Assembly: GCA_017303935.1 (NCBI GenBank)
Contig: JAFLBD010000001.1
Location: forward strand, 1 to 64,000
Reading direction: 5' to 3'
Origin: Armatimonadota bacterium
GTDB taxonomy: Bacteria > Armatimonadota > Fimbriimonadia > Fimbriimonadales > Fimbriimonadaceae
DNA length: 64,000 nucleotides
Each line of letters starts with the position of its first letter. Within the stretch, counting starts at the first letter, position 1. The notes under the pieces are model-generated. The model saw only the letters and a program-made list of their open reading frames with translations. It had not been told where the DNA came from and searched no databases. Made by a program: the position numbers and the translations under genes. Positions 42,913-52,118 of this stretch are shown one piece after another.

Positions 42913-43806
42913 GTGAGCGCGCCTATTGGAGTCTTTGGAACGGTGGTCATGGACCGGTTTCGGCACATCATGGAAATGCCGAAAGTTGGAGGTTATGCCG
43001 AATATCACCACGAGGCCTTACAGCTTGGCGGGGAGGCCGCAAACACTGCTGTAGCACTGCATCGACTTGGGCAAAGCGTCGTCCTTCGATCCAACTATGT
43101 CGGTAATGGGCAGCACATCCACCCTTGGCTAATCGAAAATGGAATCGACGTTCACGGTTGTCCAATCAGCGATTCACCCGAACCTAGCTGTGACATCTAC
43201 CTCACGCCTGACGGTGAACGGACGATGTTCGGGAGACAGCTTCTAGCACCGGATTCAGTGCCGTGGGGAAATGACATCGAGTGGGTTTCGTGTGATCCGA
43301 ATCTAGGCGAAGCCAGCCGTGAAGAGTTGCGACGAGCCTTTCGCCAAGGCAAAAAGACTTACGGTATGGACTTCTTTCAACCAGACGATCCATACGACTG
43401 CATTACGATCTGGCAATCGAGCACCGATTGGTGGGGCAACAAGGGCAACCTGCATGACAATCATGATGCGTTTGCAGCGTTCACAGATGAATATGGGTTC
43501 AACGGGATTCTGACTGCTGGTGCACAAGGGTGCCTCGCTGGCAGAGGTGACGCGCTCAGACATTATCCTGCCTTCAGAATTCCACAGGTAGTTGACGCCA
43601 CGGGCTGTGGCGATTGTTTTAGAGCGGGAGTGATTGCGGGGTTGAACGAAGGAAAGCCATTTGAGGAGGCACTGATGCTCGGTGCTGCGGTCGGGGCGTT
43701 GAACGCTACAAAGGAAGGCGCCAGTGCAGGCGCGCCGACGATGCTTGAAGCACTACAATTGATTGCGGAGCAACCAGAAATCTCTGCGGCTTATCGCCCG
43801 AGATAG
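42913..43806 (+). CDS. PfkB-family carbohydrate/nucleoside kinase
   Basis: A 297-residue ribokinase-fold kinase. The N-terminal GGEAANTAVALHRLG corresponds to PfkB signature 1, and DATGCGDCFRAGVIAGL is signature 2, with the catalytic Asp in GCGD (the usual GAGD is changed at the second position, leaving Asp intact). The substrate is unknown. GTG start, preceded by TAATCT at a six-base spacing. The 3' end overlaps the sigma-factor gene by 16 bp. Confidence 0.85.
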   Translation: MSAPIGVFGTVVMDRFRHIMEMPKVGGYAEYHHEALQLGGEAANTAVALHRLGQSVVLRSNYVGNGQHIHPWLIENGIDVHGCPISDSPEPSCDIYLTPDGERTMFGRQLLAPDSVPWGNDIEWVSCDPNLGEASREELRRAFRQGKKTYGMDFFQPDDPYDCITIWQSSTDWWGNKGNLHDNHDAFAAFTDEYGFNGILTAGAQGCLAGRGDALRHYPAFRIPQVVDATGCGDCFRAGVIAGLNEGKPFEEALMLGAAVGALNATKEGASAGAPTMLEALQLIAEQPEISAAYRPR

Positions 43807-44648
43807 TCGCGGAGTTTGCGCTGTTGGGCGAGGATTCTCAGCTTTTTGATCGCTGAAAGCTCTATCTGACGGATTCGCTCGCGGCTGACTCGCATTTCGT
43901 TAGCGAGCTGATCTCGGAGCATTGTCACTTCCTCATTGTCTTCTAACCGAAGTCTTTGCGACATAACGCGCTGCTCTCTTTCGTTCAACTCTTTCAGGAT
44001 TTCTTGGAGCTCAACGGTCCGTTCAGCGAACAGCACTTCGTCTTCCGGGTTCTCGCAGTTGGTGTCGTGGATCATCGCTCCCAAAGTTGTTTGCTCAGTG
44101 TCGCCGATTCGCATGTCAAGGCTCAGCAAATCCTGCGATGCAACCATCAAATGGGTGAGTTTTCTGGGGCTGAGTCCAATTGCTTTGGCCAGCTGATCGT
44201 GCGTGGGTTCGTGTCCTAACTCGCGGGTCAAGCGTAGTCGTTCGCGCTCAATCCTGCGGATGGATTGTGAAATGTGAGCTGGCAATCGGATCGCCTTGGA
44301 CTTACCATCGAGCGCCCTACCGATGGACTGGCGAATCCAGTGCGTGGCATAAGTCGAGAATCGGAAGCCCTTTGTAGGATCAAATCGCTTGACGGCGTGC
44401 ATGAGCCCAATCGCGCCTTCCTGGATCAAATCTTCAAGAGGAATCGCTTGGCAACGATAGCTCCGCGCAATGTTGATCACGAGGCGCATATTGGATTCGA
44501 TGAGGCGCTCACGAGCTTGCTCGTCGCCACGCTGAGCGGCGAGGGTGAGTGAGACCTCTTCCTCAGGCGTCAGCAACGGCGCTTGGGTAAGTCGTCCCCA
44601 ATAGCTGTTGTGCCCGTCATCCGAGTCGGCTGAAGTGTGCCGCGTCAA
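43791..44648 (-). CDS. group-2 (RpoD-like) sigma-70 factor
   Basis: A 285-residue sigma factor with regions 1.2-4.2 and no long region 1.1. Region 2 (NMRLVINIARSY, QEGAIGLMHAVKRFDPTKGFRFSTYATHWIRQSIGRAL) is close to primary sigmas but has His for the usual Trp. Region 3 (LARELGHEPT-like) and region 4 (LRDQLANEMRVSRERIRQIELSAIKKL, a helix-turn-helix) follow. It is a non-primary sigma because of its size. The TTG at 44648 follows AAGGAG at 12 bases, a little long. Which promoters it reads is unknown. Confidence 0.92.
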   Translation of the reverse strand: MTRHTSADSDDGHNSYWGRLTQAPLLTPEEEVSLTLAAQRGDEQARERLIESNMRLVINIARSYRCQAIPLEDLIQEGAIGLMHAVKRFDPTKGFRFSTYATHWIRQSIGRALDGKSKAIRLPAHISQSIRRIERERLRLTRELGHEPTHDQLAKAIGLSPRKLTHLMVASQDLLSLDMRIGDTEQTTLGAMIHDTNCENPEDEVLFAERTVELQEILKELNEREQRVMSQRLRLEDNEEVTMLRDQLANEMRVSRERIRQIELSAIKKLRILAQQRKLRDYLGR

Positions 44649-46851: not shown

Positions 46852-47574
46852 TTAGTCGAATCTCACCTCGACACTCCAGTCCTCAATATCCAATTCTGGA
46901 TTCGGCTGGTCGCCAGTCGGTTCAATGTTGCCGGCGGTCGTGTTGCTGTAAGTTCCTGCGCGGTCCAATGGGATATTCACGACGGTATTGATTTGCGAAG
47001 GAAAACGGCCGTCGCCTAGCGCATCCCACTGTTTGTCGGTGCCGGAAGCTGGCACACGGTCCATCGTCAGGAAGTTGATCTGCATTGCCCGTGTATTGTT
47101 GCGCTCGGTCTCATCCGGGATCATTTGCGCGAGGTCAAGTTCGAACCGAATACGGCGCGAACCGACATTAACCAAATCGCCAGAGATCGGGACGCCCGTC
47201 GTGATGAACGTTGTCAGGTCCGTAGTCTGGAATTTGTAAATTAGATAATCGTTGGATTGTGTCGGGTCCCACCAAACGAAGTGGGTAGCGTTTCCGGCAA
47301 CAAAGCCGTTGCCCCATGGTGGAGCAATCACCGGAATTGGACCTTGGGTCGGCGGTGGGCTATCTGGAGAAAAATTGATCGCCACCATATACACGTAGGG
47401 AACGCCACCTGCGCCGGTCTCGGCTCCAGTACGAACAGGGCCGCTCATCGTGTAAGAAAAGATCAGCCGCGTCGATCGCGGAGTTCCGGTCGCTGGGAAT
47501 TTGGCACAGCCGCCCAAGACCAGCAGAAGACCACTCCCGCCTAGCGCAACAAGCCGATTTTTCAGAATCTTCAT
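46852..47574 (-). CDS. exported lipoprotein of unknown function
   Basis: A 240-residue protein with a type II signal peptide (VALGGSGLLLVLGGC-AK, lipobox Cys at about 23). The mature domain is beta-rich with no recognised family. It is coupled to the zinc-ribbon gene (ATGA overlap) and adjoins the GT2 gene, so the four genes 45943-48287 form one transcript. Possible substrate of the downstream glycosyltransferase is speculation. Confidence 0.8.
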   Translation of the reverse strand: MKILKNRLVALGGSGLLLVLGGCAKFPATGTPRSTRLIFSYTMSGPVRTGAETGAGGVPYVYMVAINFSPDSPPPTQGPIPVIAPPWGNGFVAGNATHFVWWDPTQSNDYLIYKFQTTDLTTFITTGVPISGDLVNVGSRRIRFELDLAQMIPDETERNNTRAMQINFLTMDRVPASGTDKQWDALGDGRFPSQINTVVNIPLDRAGTYSNTTAGNIEPTGDQPNPELDIEDWSVEVRFD

Positions 47575-48287
47575 TCGGAAGGAACAACCTTAAACAGGAT
47601 TCGATGACATGTTTCGCAGGTCATCAATTTGTCGGTATTCACCGCTTCAATGATTCGACGCGCCAGAGACGTTCCGCATGCGGTGCATTTATCATTTTCT
47701 ACAACGCCCATCCCAATTCCGTGATATTTGGCTCGAATGGCTTCGTACTTGTCGAGCAATCCACGTTCGACTTCCTTGGCCGCCGAGGTCCTCTCCACCT
47801 GCTTCGCAGCAAACTTGGCTTTGATTTCCTCTAAAAGCTGCGCGTCGCCCGTCTTCTTCGATTCCAAAGTTTTAACCATTTGGTTAATCTGGCTTGCGAT
47901 CGGGCGGGCTTCTGCCAGAGCCGCTGGTTCTTGATCAATGATCTCTAGCATTTGCAATTCGTAATCGCTGATTTTTTGCCCTAGAGAAGCAATCTCTAAT
48001 TCAATGCTTGCTGCCTCTTTGCTGTTCACGACAGAACCACCGTACAGAGTTTTGTCCAGAGTTTTCTTCTTTTCGGTGCTCGCGGTAACTTTGTCTTCGA
48101 GCTCTTTCAAAGCAGCTTTGAGCTTCGCTGGCCTTTCCAAAATCTCTAAATTGGCTTGCTTTAGGTCTCGAATTTCTTGCACCAGAGCTTTGCCTCCATC
48201 AAGCGATGCGGCTCGCTTTTTGAGATGGAGCAATTCGGTATCGACTAGGTGAAGCCGGTACAGCAGATAAAGAGAATTGTCCGACAT
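47571..48287 (-). CDS. coiled-coil protein with C4 zinc ribbon (CT398-like)
   Basis: A 238-residue protein. A long helical hairpin (about residues 20-180, rich in Lys/Glu and heptads) ends in a zinc ribbon with two CxxC pairs (CTACG and CETCH, about 40 residues from the end). This is the C4-type zinc-ribbon/CT398 family, reported to have a nucleic-acid or flagellar/secretion-chaperone role in some bacteria. I start at the ATG at 48287; CATAAT lies 9 bases before it. Divergent from the VOC gene. Confidence 0.85.
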   Translation of the reverse strand: MSDNSLYLLYRLHLVDTELLHLKKRAASLDGGKALVQEIRDLKQANLEILERPAKLKAALKELEDKVTASTEKKKTLDKTLYGGSVVNSKEAASIELEIASLGQKISDYELQMLEIIDQEPAALAEARPIASQINQMVKTLESKKTGDAQLLEEIKAKFAAKQVERTSAAKEVERGLLDKYEAIRAKYHGIGMGVVENDKCTACGTSLARRIIEAVNTDKLMTCETCHRILFKVVPSE

Positions 48288-48353
48288 GAACAATTGATTA
48301 TGGTCTAGTTGAAGGACATCGGCGCAGAATTGTCGAAAACGGAGGATACGGCA

Positions 48354-48740
48354 ATGGCCTCGTCGTTCAGCCAACTCATTTTAGATGTCGAGAATTTGGA
48401 TCGTTCGCTCCAGTTCTATGAGGGCATCTTGCACCTATCGGTTCAGCACCACTCGAACCTCGATGGCGTTAAGTTGGCGTCGTTGCTCGCGGGAAAAACC
48501 GAAGTGATTTTGGTCCAACGCTCGCCATTTGAACAAAACAGCGCATATGATCGGGCTGGTGGAGTCGTGCTCAACTTCAATGTAAACAACCTTCTAGGTC
48601 TGTTCACCGAGATTCAAGATACTGGAATCAAGGTTTTGCGAAACGTTGAATCGACCTCGTTGGGCGAGCGGTCGTTGTTGGTGGCCGACCCAGACGGTTA
48701 CGCCGTCATGCTGAGCGAAAATTCCGCTTTGATGAATTAA
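48354..48740 (+). CDS. VOC (glyoxalase/dioxygenase fold) protein
   Basis: A 128-residue vicinal-oxygen-chelate domain with LDVENLDRSLQFYEGIL at the start and VADPDGYAVML near the end. Reaction unknown. Start at ATG 48354, because GGAGG lies 8 bases upstream; the in-frame TTG at 48309 would add 15 residues. Its stop overlaps the convergent rtcA gene by 4 bp. Confidence 0.88.
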   Translation: MASSFSQLILDVENLDRSLQFYEGILHLSVQHHSNLDGVKLASLLAGKTEVILVQRSPFEQNSAYDRAGGVVLNFNVNNLLGLFTEIQDTGIKVLRNVESTSLGERSLLVADPDGYAVMLSENSALMN

Positions 48741-49801
48741 CTTGGGTTGATCGTCACAGTCCCTGGCATTCCTGGTTGACCCAAAATCGTGATGCTGATC
48801 GGCATAAATTGCCGTATGACCCAAGCCATGGTTTGGAGCCTGGGAGTGATGGTCAAGGTTTTGAATCGTGTCGGTGACGAAGCGAGCGCACCGGCGACCA
48901 ACGCTTGATCGGCCAAGAATGGGTCCAATGTGGCGTCAGATTTGACGAATCGCATCAGCATTTCACCTGCTGATCTTACGACTTGTTCCGTTCGGATTCC
49001 GCGACCACCCATGGCTGTGCCGCACCCGATGCCACGTTCGTACCGAGCGACAAACGTGACGAACATGCCGTTGGTTTTGGACGGAACTTCGCAAGCTTCG
49101 ACTTCGAAAGTCTTGCACAGCCGTTCGCAAAACTCCGTCATCGCTTTCACTGCGCGCTCGGGAATGTCCTTCGATATTCCGGAGTGGCTGACGACGGCAA
49201 CGACGGATTCAAGTTCGCCGCGGTTAGACCAATCAAATCCATGGAGTGCGCTTGGTTCGACTTCAGCAAACACCTCGCCCTTGGCAGCGAACCCAAATCC
49301 GGCGAGATTTTGCTCTGCAAACGCCACGAGCCCTTGTGCGGCGTGAAGGCGCAAGGTCGCTTGCTGAAACGCGTCAAAGGTCAAGGTATTTGGGTTGTAT
49401 GTCTCCCCCTTGACGCTGAAGGTGGAATACGCCCCAGACTTCGCCAAGATCGGTAGTAAGGAGTCGATGATCATCAACGCATTGCCCGGAATGCTGCCTT
49501 TTTCGTGGCTACCGACGTCATAAATGCCCTTCAATGGACGGGGAGCGCGAGTGGGGACATACAGGATTTCTTCCGATCCGAGATCAACGCCGCCGAGTTT
49601 AGCCTCACAAATATATTCCGCGGCCTGCAAAAACGTGAGGTCTTCACTGGTTAAGCCTGGCTTGCGCGTTCCGCCTCGAATGTGATGGATTCGCACGGGT
49701 TGAACGGTCAACGCTGCTAGAGAAAGCGCGGTGCGCAGTAGCATGCCGCCGCCTTCGCCCTGAGAGCCATTGATGACCAGCGGATCTTGTTGGGCTCGCA
49801 T
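48737..49801 (-). CDS. RtcA-family protein lacking the catalytic histidine
   Basis: A 354-residue protein of the RNA 3'-terminal phosphate cyclase family. The N-terminal INGSQGEGGGMLLRTALSLAAL, SIPGNALM..., RGIGCGTAMGG and PFLADQALV segments identify the fold and correspond to RtcA. In active RtcA the adenylated nucleophile is a His in the C-terminal motif corresponding to E. coli SCHLLTN (His309); here the aligned segment reads TPRLQTMAW, with Arg321 replacing His. The protein may therefore not form the adenylate and could be an RNA-binding relative, like eukaryotic Rcl1 which also lacks the nucleophile. It follows the CW membrane protein (TAATG overlap); no rtcB is present. Confidence 0.85.
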   Translation of the reverse strand: MRAQQDPLVINGSQGEGGGMLLRTALSLAALTVQPVRIHHIRGGTRKPGLTSEDLTFLQAAEYICEAKLGGVDLGSEEILYVPTRAPRPLKGIYDVGSHEKGSIPGNALMIIDSLLPILAKSGAYSTFSVKGETYNPNTLTFDAFQQATLRLHAAQGLVAFAEQNLAGFGFAAKGEVFAEVEPSALHGFDWSNRGELESVVAVVSHSGISKDIPERAVKAMTEFCERLCKTFEVEACEVPSKTNGMFVTFVARYERGIGCGTAMGGRGIRTEQVVRSAGEMLMRFVKSDATLDPFLADQALVAGALASSPTRFKTLTITPRLQTMAWVIRQFMPISITILGQPGMPGTVTINPS

Positions 49802-50862
49802 TACATTTTGAGCTTGAAGATCATGTATTCCAGCATTTTGAGAAGGTACGCCAGCACCATGATCATCAAAAGCACGCTCAAGACTTCCTGCATGATTGGA
49901 AGTTGATCGTTTTGAGCGATGTTTGGTTTGCCCGTGAGAGTTGCTTGCCCCAAGAACTTGTCGGCGAAACTCAAAATCCCACCCACTCCAGCTTTTATGG
50001 CATCTCTGCCAACCAGGTAAATCGAAAGGACGAAGAGGAGAGTGAGTGGAAGCAACAGCTTGTACTTATGCTTCTGATGTTCGTTGTAGATCACGCATTG
50101 TTGGCAACGCTTGATCTTAATCTCCATCGGCAAACTGGTGTTATACGGAATGAACTTTGCGGCGGCAATTGCATCCTTCGGGATCGGCTTGCCCTCCATC
50201 GCGTTTTGAATCACCTTTTCTTCGCACATACACCCGACGCGCTCCTTCCAGCAGGTAAGACGAGTGTGATAGATCGGACATTTTTCGCGGACAAATTTTC
50301 GGCAGTACGGCAGCTGCCAGCACTTGCCCATGAACACGTTTTGGCGATCGTCTTCTTCGCGAACGCCCTTGCCGTACTTGAGCGAATCAGCTTTGCTGCC
50401 CTCTTTTGCCCGGTCACGAACGCGCGTGATGACGTCGAAAAGGGTGACGATGACCGTGACGATTCCTATCGCGAACCCAGCCGTTTGAACTCGCTGGAGC
50501 GCCGTCGCGGCAACTTGTTCGACACTACCCCCTACGAATTGAGGCAGGAAAACTGGGGCCATCACGATCGCTATCGTGACGATGATGAGTAAGACGCTGA
50601 GGACTTCTTCGCCCCAAAAAACGATGGCGGCACCAATCGCCATGATCAGTCCGCTGATCGCGGCGACTCGGCCAAACATGTCGACCATCTGGGTCGCTTT
50701 GGCGACATCGGTCGGCTGTGCACCGGCAAAGCTGAAGAAGTAGTAAAGGAGAAATCCTATACCGCCGAGGAGTCCGATTCCCCCGGCATAAAACAAAAGC
50801 CTGCTGACAGTATCCTGCAGACCACTTAGAAAGTCCTCTACTCCTTCTCCAGATTTTCGCAT
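49801..50862 (-). CDS. six-helix membrane protein with an eight-cysteine 'CW' cytoplasmic loop
   Basis: A 353-residue protein with four N-terminal hydrophobic segments (about 21-45, 66-84, 88-108, 128-148), a central soluble loop (149-268) and two C-terminal segments (about 269-285 and 325-348). The loop holds Cys181, 187, 195, 204, 211, 213, 253 and 256 in the pattern CW-x5-C-x7-CP-x7-CW-x6-C-x-C then CxxC. The paired CW and CP motifs resemble a 'two-CW' domain, likely binding zinc or an Fe-S cluster. Function is unknown. It lies 3 bases downstream of efp and overlaps rtcA (TAATG). Confidence 0.75.
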   Translation of the reverse strand: MRKSGEGVEDFLSGLQDTVSRLLFYAGGIGLLGGIGFLLYYFFSFAGAQPTDVAKATQMVDMFGRVAAISGLIMAIGAAIVFWGEEVLSVLLIIVTIAIVMAPVFLPQFVGGSVEQVAATALQRVQTAGFAIGIVTVIVTLFDVITRVRDRAKEGSKADSLKYGKGVREEDDRQNVFMGKCWQLPYCRKFVREKCPIYHTRLTCWKERVGCMCEEKVIQNAMEGKPIPKDAIAAAKFIPYNTSLPMEIKIKRCQQCVIYNEHQKHKYKLLLPLTLLFVLSIYLVGRDAIKAGVGGILSFADKFLGQATLTGKPNIAQNDQLPIMQEVLSVLLMIMVLAYLLKMLEYMIFKLKM

Positions 50863-50865
50863 GCG

Positions 50866-51444
50866 TTATTTCTTGTTGACGCGTTCGATATAGTTACCGT
50901 CGCGGGTATCTATCTTGATCGTGTCGCCTTCATTGATATGATAAGGCACTTGAACTTTAGCACCAGTTTCAACTACCGCGCCCTTGGTCGAGCTTCCGCT
51001 AACGGTATCTCCCTTGATGCCTGGCTCTGCCTCAACAATACGAAGCTCTACAAAGTTTGGAAGTTCATAAGTAATGACTTGATCGTCGACGGCTAGCCCG
51101 ATGATCTTGCTTTCTTCCTTCAAAAACTCGGCTCCTTGCCCCAGAATGTTCAGCGGGACATAGAGCTGATCGTAGCTTTCCAAGTCCATCAAGACCGCTT
51201 CTTGGTCGATATCGTTCTTGTAGAGGAACTGCAATTCCTTCTTTTCAAGGAACACCGCATCCACCTTTTCACCCGATCGGAAGGTCTTTTCGATGACGTT
51301 CCCGTTATCGACTCGGCGAAGTCTTGTGCGAACAAATGCGCCGCCCTTTCCGGGTTTTACATGCTGAAATTCGACGAGCACATAGGTTGCGCCGTCAATC
51401 TTCATGGCCATGCCATTACGAAAATCACTGGTATCTACTGCCAA
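50866..51444 (-). CDS. efp: translation elongation factor P
   Basis: A 192-residue EF-P (three OB/KOW-like domains) that relieves ribosome stalling at polyproline. The tip loop KPGKGGAF holds the Lys that is modified in many bacteria. The start is TTG at 51444, 7 bases after GGAG. A TACAAT -10 lies 42-47 bases upstream and a small hairpin (51459-51473) is in the leader, so efp likely has its own promoter within the nusB-accC run. Confidence 0.97.
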   Translation of the reverse strand: MAVDTSDFRNGMAMKIDGATYVLVEFQHVKPGKGGAFVRTRLRRVDNGNVIEKTFRSGEKVDAVFLEKKELQFLYKNDIDQEAVLMDLESYDQLYVPLNILGQGAEFLKEESKIIGLAVDDQVITYELPNFVELRIVEAEPGIKGDTVSGSSTKGAVVETGAKVQVPYHINEGDTIKIDTRDGNYIERVNKK

Positions 51445-51503: not shown

Positions 51504-52118
51504 CTACGAATCGCGCTTAAGTAACCAACCACCTTTTCGCAGTAATTCATGTTCCTCAGAACCTTCCTCTACGTCCATGTGATCCACTTCTATTGGTTGT
51601 GGGGTTTGCTCATCGTCTTCGCTGAGTGTCGAAGTGCCAACTTTGCTCGGGTCCCAGACTGCCTTCGAGGAACTCGGGAGATATTTGCCCAAAACGCCGT
51701 TTACGAACCGGCCGCTTTCTTCGGAGCCGAATTTCTTCGCCATGATCACCGCTTCGCTGATCGTCACCTTGGGTGGCATCGACTCGATGTGATCGAGCTC
51801 GAAAAACGCCATGCGCAAGATCGCTCGATCGACTTTGGCGATTCGGCTCAAATCCCAATTCTTTGAGAGAAGTGCTGAGATTTGCTCATCAATGACTTCA
51901 AGTTGTTCGACCGTGCCCTTGACGAGTGATTCGATGTACTCGATCGCTTCTGGAACAAACGGTTCGCGATTTGTCGCCGATTGAATCGCTTCATCAACCT
52001 CTGTTTCGGCAGTATCGATTTCGTACAATGCTTGAAACGCTGATTCACGCGCCAACCGTCGGCTCCGAACCAATTTAACCGGCTGTTCCTGCTCCTCCGG
52101 ATTCAATTCGTCACTCAT
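51504..52118 (-). CDS. nusB: transcription antitermination factor NusB
   Basis: A 204-residue NusB with the RNA/NusE-binding helical fold (RRLAREAAFQALY-like start, IAKVDRAILRMAFFELDHIESMPPKVTISEAVIMAKKFGSEES in parts). It supports rRNA antitermination. The C-terminus has a long acidic tail (EDDEQTPQPIE..EEGSEEHE) beyond the usual end near LPSSSK. The ATG at 52118 overlaps the accC stop (ATGA). Confidence 0.94.
   Translation of the reverse strand: MSDELNPEEQEQPVKLVRSRRLARESAFQALYEIDTAETEVDEAIQSATNREPFVPEAIEYIESLVKGTVEQLEVIDEQISALLSKNWDLSRIAKVDRAILRMAFFELDHIESMPPKVTISEAVIMAKKFGSEESGRFVNGVLGKYLPSSSKAVWDPSKVGTSTLSEDDEQTPQPIEVDHMDVEEGSEEHELLRKGGWLLKRDS

Follow-up and report, generated by a model that had tools for sequence, protein, structure and literature searches.

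An RtcA-like protein without the nucleophilic histidine, conserved throughout the Fimbriimonadaceae, is possibly a binding protein

RNA 3′-phosphate cyclases of the RtcA type follow a covalent course, which leads from a His-AMP intermediate through RNA-3′pp5′A to the 2′,3′-cyclic phosphate. The RtcA-AMP intermediate arises when His309 of E. coli RtcA (His320 in the human enzyme) attacks ATP (PMC6277466). What, then, can be the task of an RtcA-like protein that has no histidine at this position? Such a protein is encoded in the window, that is, the whole stretch of 64,000 nucleotides from a member of the Fimbriimonadaceae (phylum Armatimonadota) that was analysed here (Table 1). Its membership of the RtcA family, which had been claimed in a sequence-only reading, is upheld by Pfam, as both RTC (PF01137, E=3.9e-44) and RTC_insert (PF05189, E=4.3e-9) match the ORF. 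The NCBIfam cut-offs for RtcA equivalogs are not reached (NF003246, 208 bits against 352; TIGR03399, 197 against 250). The same is true of the Rcl1 model (TIGR03400, 27.9 bits against 227.95), and the protein cannot be counted as an orthologue of Rcl1.

Table 1. Features at the locus, numbered from the first letter of the window.
Feature	Position	Strand	Remarks
RtcA-like ORF	48737..49801	minus	354 aa; RTC fold and RTC insert domain; lacks the nucleophilic His
GEGGG motif, residues 15-19	49745..49759	minus	Glu16 corresponds to Glu14 of E. coli RtcA
Glu53-Asp54	49640..49645	minus	In place of canonical Gln51-His52 in the alignment
E-P-S motif, residues 182-184	49250..49258	minus	Clade signature, retained even in reduced genomes
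Arg321 codon	48839..48841	minus	Aligned with His309 of E. coli RtcA
(K/R)QFxP, residues 330-334	48800..48814	minus	C-terminal helix; retained throughout, including reduced genomes
TMcys	49801..50862	minus	Upstream gene; membrane protein of 353 aa in which 8 Cys are invariant
efp (elongation factor P)	50866..51444	minus	Upstream of TMcys
nusB	51504..52118	minus	Adjacency not conserved in the family

The replaced residue lies in the motif TPRLQTMAW, which spans residues 319-327 of the window protein. The proposal that Arg321 takes the place of His309 was confirmed, since the two are matched without gaps in pairwise (phmmer), profile, and multiple alignments. PF01137 was searched for in 85 genomes of the Fimbriimonadaceae and 291 of the phylum, and 84 divergent and 46 canonical sequences, each of at least 300 aa, were aligned. 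At the position of His309, Arg is found in 76/76 full-length sequences from the main Fimbriimonadaceae group, Thr in all seven tested sequences of a sister family (f2), and His in 46 of the 46 canonical RtcAs of the phylum. Because Arg is invariant in the main group, Arg321 cannot be put down to chance. The loss of the nucleophilic His is clade-wide and ancient, and it concerns a conserved, universal gene.

Such a protein could still be a canonical covalent cyclase if another residue, either a His elsewhere or a Lys such as that at position 330, served as the nucleophile. The fold and the GEGGG motif are retained, and residue 330, which is nearly invariant as Lys or Arg, is the sole conserved Lys/Arg near the Arg321 position in the clade. 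However, in the window protein this residue is an Arg, nine residues down the helix, and Q51, H52, R43, Q104, and P131 (E. coli numbering) are gone as well. Another active-site His, on whose absence the earlier reading depended, does not appear in the clade alignment either: His is conserved in none of its columns, and the best of them (54/83) has Gln in the window protein. With residue 330 as the only conserved Lys/Arg nearby, no replacement nucleophile is visible, and a cyclase of this kind is highly improbable.

The rest of the pocket has been partly kept and partly rebuilt. In the E. coli enzyme, Glu14 is a metal ligand. The claim that the N-terminal motifs of the window protein are intact stands for GEGGG (E16), R23, and R42. 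It fails for other positions that are invariant or nearly so among canonical RtcAs, where the protein carries the changes Q18 to M, R43 to T, Q51 to E, H52 to D, Q104 to D, G124 to E, and P131 to L (E. coli numbering). In general, the clade keeps the equivalents of E. coli E14, R21, R40, D287, and Q288. Thus, Glu16 is present in 83/83 clade sequences outside two reduced genomes, and the counts in the main group are 76/76 for E16, 74/76 for R23, 76/76 for R42, 69/76 for D298, and 67/76 for Q299. At the same time, the main group has new invariant residues at pocket positions, namely E53, D54, E133, and R321 (Glu53 in 76/76 and Asp54 in 75/76, where canonical sequences have Gln51 in 45/46 and His52 in 46/46).

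These exchanges can be followed in a signature of six positions (43/51/52/124/131/309 of E. coli RtcA). It reads R-Q-H-G-P-H in 44/46 canonical sequences, the other two having Ala or a gap at one position. Nearly all Fimbriimonadaceae have (T/M/L, in rare cases another residue)-E-D-E-(L/M/I/V)-R, and the sister family has L-(V/I/M)-D-G-P-T. The canonical set R43-Q51-H52-G124-P131-H309 has been replaced en bloc in the clade. Positions 309 and 51 have shifted jointly on each branch (H/Q, R/E, T/V), which, with two events only, suggests but does not prove that both residues are in contact; from this covariation between groups, a salt bridge between R321 and E53 may be proposed. Because the nucleophile has been lost throughout the clade, no substitute is conserved, and the pocket residues have changed, a covalent RNA cyclase is very unlikely, and the proteins of the clade are almost certainly non-adenylating.

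In a quick tree, the proteins that lack the His form one clade (SH-aLRT support of 100 for the branch), and the RtcAs of E. coli and of the archaeon P. horikoshii fall among the canonical sequences. It might be supposed that this clade is a decaying remnant of RtcA that drifts without function, as residues specific to RtcA have been lost, and two draft genomes (G014 and G037) hold broken matches to the gene. The rates of evolution speak strongly against this: pairwise dN/dS is 0.017-0.16 for the divergent copies and 0.10-0.14 for the canonical ones, values that are raised by 5′ extensions on a few ORFs. In addition, the clade has invariant residues of its own, and the gene is carried even by genomes of 1.5 Mb. 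The Pfam search found it in 84/85 Fimbriimonadaceae genomes and missed that of G059, whose copy was recovered by a search with the G060 protein. The gene is therefore present in 85/85 family genomes, a count that includes seven fragments with broken frames or at contig ends. The clade is under strong purifying selection, and a functionless remnant is scarcely credible.

The divergent gene is usually single-copy. Elsewhere in the phylum, canonical RtcA is patchy (78/198 other genomes; 170 - 84 - 8), and both types occur together in six genomes (G007, G022, G058, G082, G151, and G155); in G007, the divergent copy lies at C1 ~988601-989575 and the canonical one at C1 ~4461418. A partnership with RtcB was considered and rejected, as 28/85 family genomes, all of them with the divergent gene, have no RtcB match; the gene is thus independent of RNA ligation by RtcB. 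As a separate observation, RtcB matches in the family reach at most ~230-240 bits, and many are split, compared with ~600 bits in much of the remaining phylum, so the RtcB of the Fimbriimonadaceae is a divergent, RtcB-like subfamily. No relatives of the clade were found on viral contigs; phage and plasmid matches had at most 31% identity, and most were annotated rtcA or came from E. coli. A scan of genome contigs yielded two close relatives only, both from Fimbriimonadaceae, and no report of an RtcA without the His in Armatimonadota was found within a limited literature collection.

The comparison with RtcA and Rcl1 through structure prediction, which had been recommended, shows that the fold matches both. 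An AlphaFold2 model, for which the window protein and two relatives (three sequences) were the input, had a pLDDT of 77 and a pTM of 0.74. It matches RtcA with a Foldseek value of 1e-31 and a Z of 33.2 to 4O89 and 30.9 to 3TUT (the RtcA.ATP complex). Over 323-333 residues, Z ranges from 33.2 to 30.4 for RtcA and from 26.0 to 28.6 for Rcl1. The closest solved structures are RtcAs (E. coli 1QMH/3TUT and P. horikoshii 4O89; 27% and 24% identity), with which the clade shares the whole fold with the insert domain, GEGGG with Glu14, Arg21, Arg40, Asp287, and Gln288. Unlike RtcA, the clade has lost His309, R43, Q51, H52, Q104, and P131, and its gene is core rather than patchy and is not linked to rtcB or archease.

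Rcl1, a protein of the eukaryotic small-subunit processome, has the same fold and has also lost the nucleophile, a parallel that had been drawn from the sequence and that was borne out. In three alignment modes with Rcl1 sequences taken from PDB chains, the His309 position is Tyr in human, Glu in Chaetomium, and Arg in both S. cerevisiae and K. lactis, the yeasts thus having the same residue as the clade. R43, Q51, and H52 are replaced in Rcl1 and the clade alike, with an acid at 52, and both are core genes. By contrast, GEGGG and Glu14, which the clade keeps outside the two reduced genomes, have been lost in Rcl1, where the motif is absent from the alignment. Moreover, the clade is bacterial, is closer in sequence to RtcA than to Rcl1, and has no known partner. 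The RDK/RHK motif of Rcl1 lies on the same C-terminal helix as the (K/R)QFxP of the clade, and the Lys of Rcl1 falls on residue 330. Mutation of this motif abolishes Bms1 binding in yeast. In human, 18S production continued with the corresponding mutant, and the motif is therefore not essential everywhere (PMC4914098).

If the covalent reaction has been lost, catalysis of another type could have taken its place. The main rival to a role in binding is an enzyme that acts by a non-covalent mechanism on RNA 3′-phosphates, nucleotides, or some other phosphorylated substrate, a possible reading, if a somewhat doubtful one. EPSP synthase and MurA, which catalyse without a protein-nucleotide intermediate, resemble the model distantly (Z 14-15 over ~195 residues); they differ in domain count, motifs, and chemistry, and show no sequence match. 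In addition, outside the two reduced genomes, E16, R23, and R42 are near-invariant, D298 and Q299 are strongly conserved, and E53, D54, E133, and R321 have been gained as invariant residues. A pure scaffold would have no need of conserved pocket residues, and it is therefore plausible that the pocket serves catalysis or the binding of a ligand. However, E53, E133, and R321 are absent from the sister family, and the two reduced genomes have kept the gene after the loss of nearly all pocket residues.

These two genomes, G059 and G060, measure 1.5 Mb, have a GC content of 0.33-0.39 at the locus, and carry intact RTC ORFs of ~350 aa whose proteins are 39% identical to each other. Both proteins lack the equivalents of E14, R21, D287, and Q288, that of R40 is gone in G059 too, and the Arg321 position is Ser in both. 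Among the 61 columns that are conserved in at least 85% of the clade, 19 are identical in both proteins; these are mainly structural Gly, Pro, and Leu, together with E182-P183-S184, K330-Q331-F332, P334, T338, G341, and G347. The pocket can thus be lost from a gene that persists, whereas the C-terminal element was retained. No other single observation argues as well for binding over catalysis; it comes from one fast-evolving lineage, which may reflect a relaxed, altered function instead of the ancestral one. The strongly eroded genes are at L112 4047-5090 (G060) and L137 1501-2550 (G059). Both genomes look like those of host-associated, reduced Armatimonadota; G059 encodes an LRR-like protein and G060 a Met-Pro-Thr-Gly-Asp repeat protein (L112 1593-3794).

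The gene neighbourhood had been offered as a hint of a ribosomal role, as efp and nusB lie in the same operon, but this hint proved weak. In the window, the TMcys stop and the start codon (ATG) of the RtcA-like gene have 1 nt in common; 62-68 family loci show the order efp-TMcys-RTC, with the RTC start mostly 0-11 nt from the TMcys stop. TMcys is present in 271/291 genomes of the phylum, adjoins efp across Armatimonadota, and forms an efp-TMcys-accB-accC(-nusB) operon in other families that has no RtcA-like gene. The pair is also unbroken in three genomes (G039, G056, and G010) whose RtcA-like gene now lies elsewhere. The RTC gene joined an older efp-TMcys operon later and left it again in these three genomes. 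TMcys, which had been considered as a specific partner, was rejected because this ancestral pair exists without the gene elsewhere and stays intact when it leaves. No convincing match to TMcys was found in Pfam, NCBIfam, or the PDB; its invariant cysteines (C181, C187, C195, C204, C211, C213, C253, and C256) perhaps hold a metal or an Fe-S cluster. As for nusB, none of the other family loci examined had it next to the RtcA-like gene. That the efp neighbourhood predates the gene counts against a ribosomal reading.

In the sister family, the RTC gene is the last in an operon with HD-7TM, ybeY, dgkA, and CNNM/CorC, all four of which are present at 5/7 loci; the remaining two have fewer, and for one of them the contig is short. 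YbeY is an endoribonuclease of 16S rRNA 3′-end processing (PMC6943124). Neither efp-TMcys nor ybeY-dgkA-CNNM includes rtcB or archease, the latter of which adjoins the canonical copy of a further family (f3, L122), a position that agrees with a part in RNA ligation. The two housekeeping neighbourhoods, which are unrelated to each other, give a weak hint of a role in translation or in the maturation of ribosomes. In the ybeY operon of the sister family, the diacylglycerol kinase is joined to a PAP2-like domain (L120 7134-7841). In the window, the RTC gene is followed downstream by a CT398-like coiled coil with a Zn ribbon (CdsZ-like, 47571-48374, minus strand), which, among the loci examined, has this position in the window genus only.

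A partner outside the ribosome may also be considered, in which case the protein would be a subunit of a transcription or stress regulator. For instance, E. coli RtcA binds the CARF domain of RtcR; catalysis is not needed, and the RtcRAB complex assembles even with catalytic mutants of RtcA (PMC9650030). A gene for a sigma-70-type factor is near the RTC gene in the window genus and in the G056/G057 lineage (43791-44648 in the window; L105 5660-6523; L077 8835-9689); in G010 it lies at a greater distance. Nevertheless, it is not a neighbour at most family loci, and a regulatory subunit is unlikely.

The best reading, to which we give an even chance, is a protein that acts by binding and docking or as a scaffold. 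A descendant of the RNA 3′-phosphate cyclases would have become a non-adenylating core housekeeping protein, usually single-copy, in which the lack of the nucleophilic His and of several canonical pocket residues would make the covalent RtcA reaction impossible. The RTC fold may hold RNA or a nucleotide-like ligand in a modified pocket (E16, R23, R42, E53, D54, E133, D298, Q299, and R321), and a partner may dock through the C-terminal helix-strand element (K/R)QFxP...T..G.....G and the EPS motif. Basic charge was discarded as a sign of RNA binding, as the divergent proteins, with a median pI of 5.95 and 5.87, lack it; such values do not favour a claim of RNA binding. If Rcl1 is taken as a guide, the setting would probably be translation or rRNA maturation, although the link to the ribosome is only suggestive. 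It is rather doubtful that the transition from RtcA to Rcl1 has been repeated independently in bacteria, with a dead cyclase turned into a core factor of ribosome maturation or translation that uses the same C-terminal docking helix.

Rcl1 is usually regarded as a eukaryotic peculiarity. Whether it acts as a nuclease or as a scaffold is still disputed (PMC4914098). A bacterial clade that has independently lost the same residue, in a universal gene, would provide a natural replicate of Rcl1. Genes without the His are liable to be labelled ‘RNA 3′-terminal phosphate cyclase’ despite the missing catalytic residue, and such annotations should be read with caution. Fimbriimonas ginsengisoli, of which Gsoil 348 is a cultured strain (PMC4072686), has both versions of the gene and makes a direct test possible. 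The clade would reveal the role of the RTC fold once catalysis has been removed.
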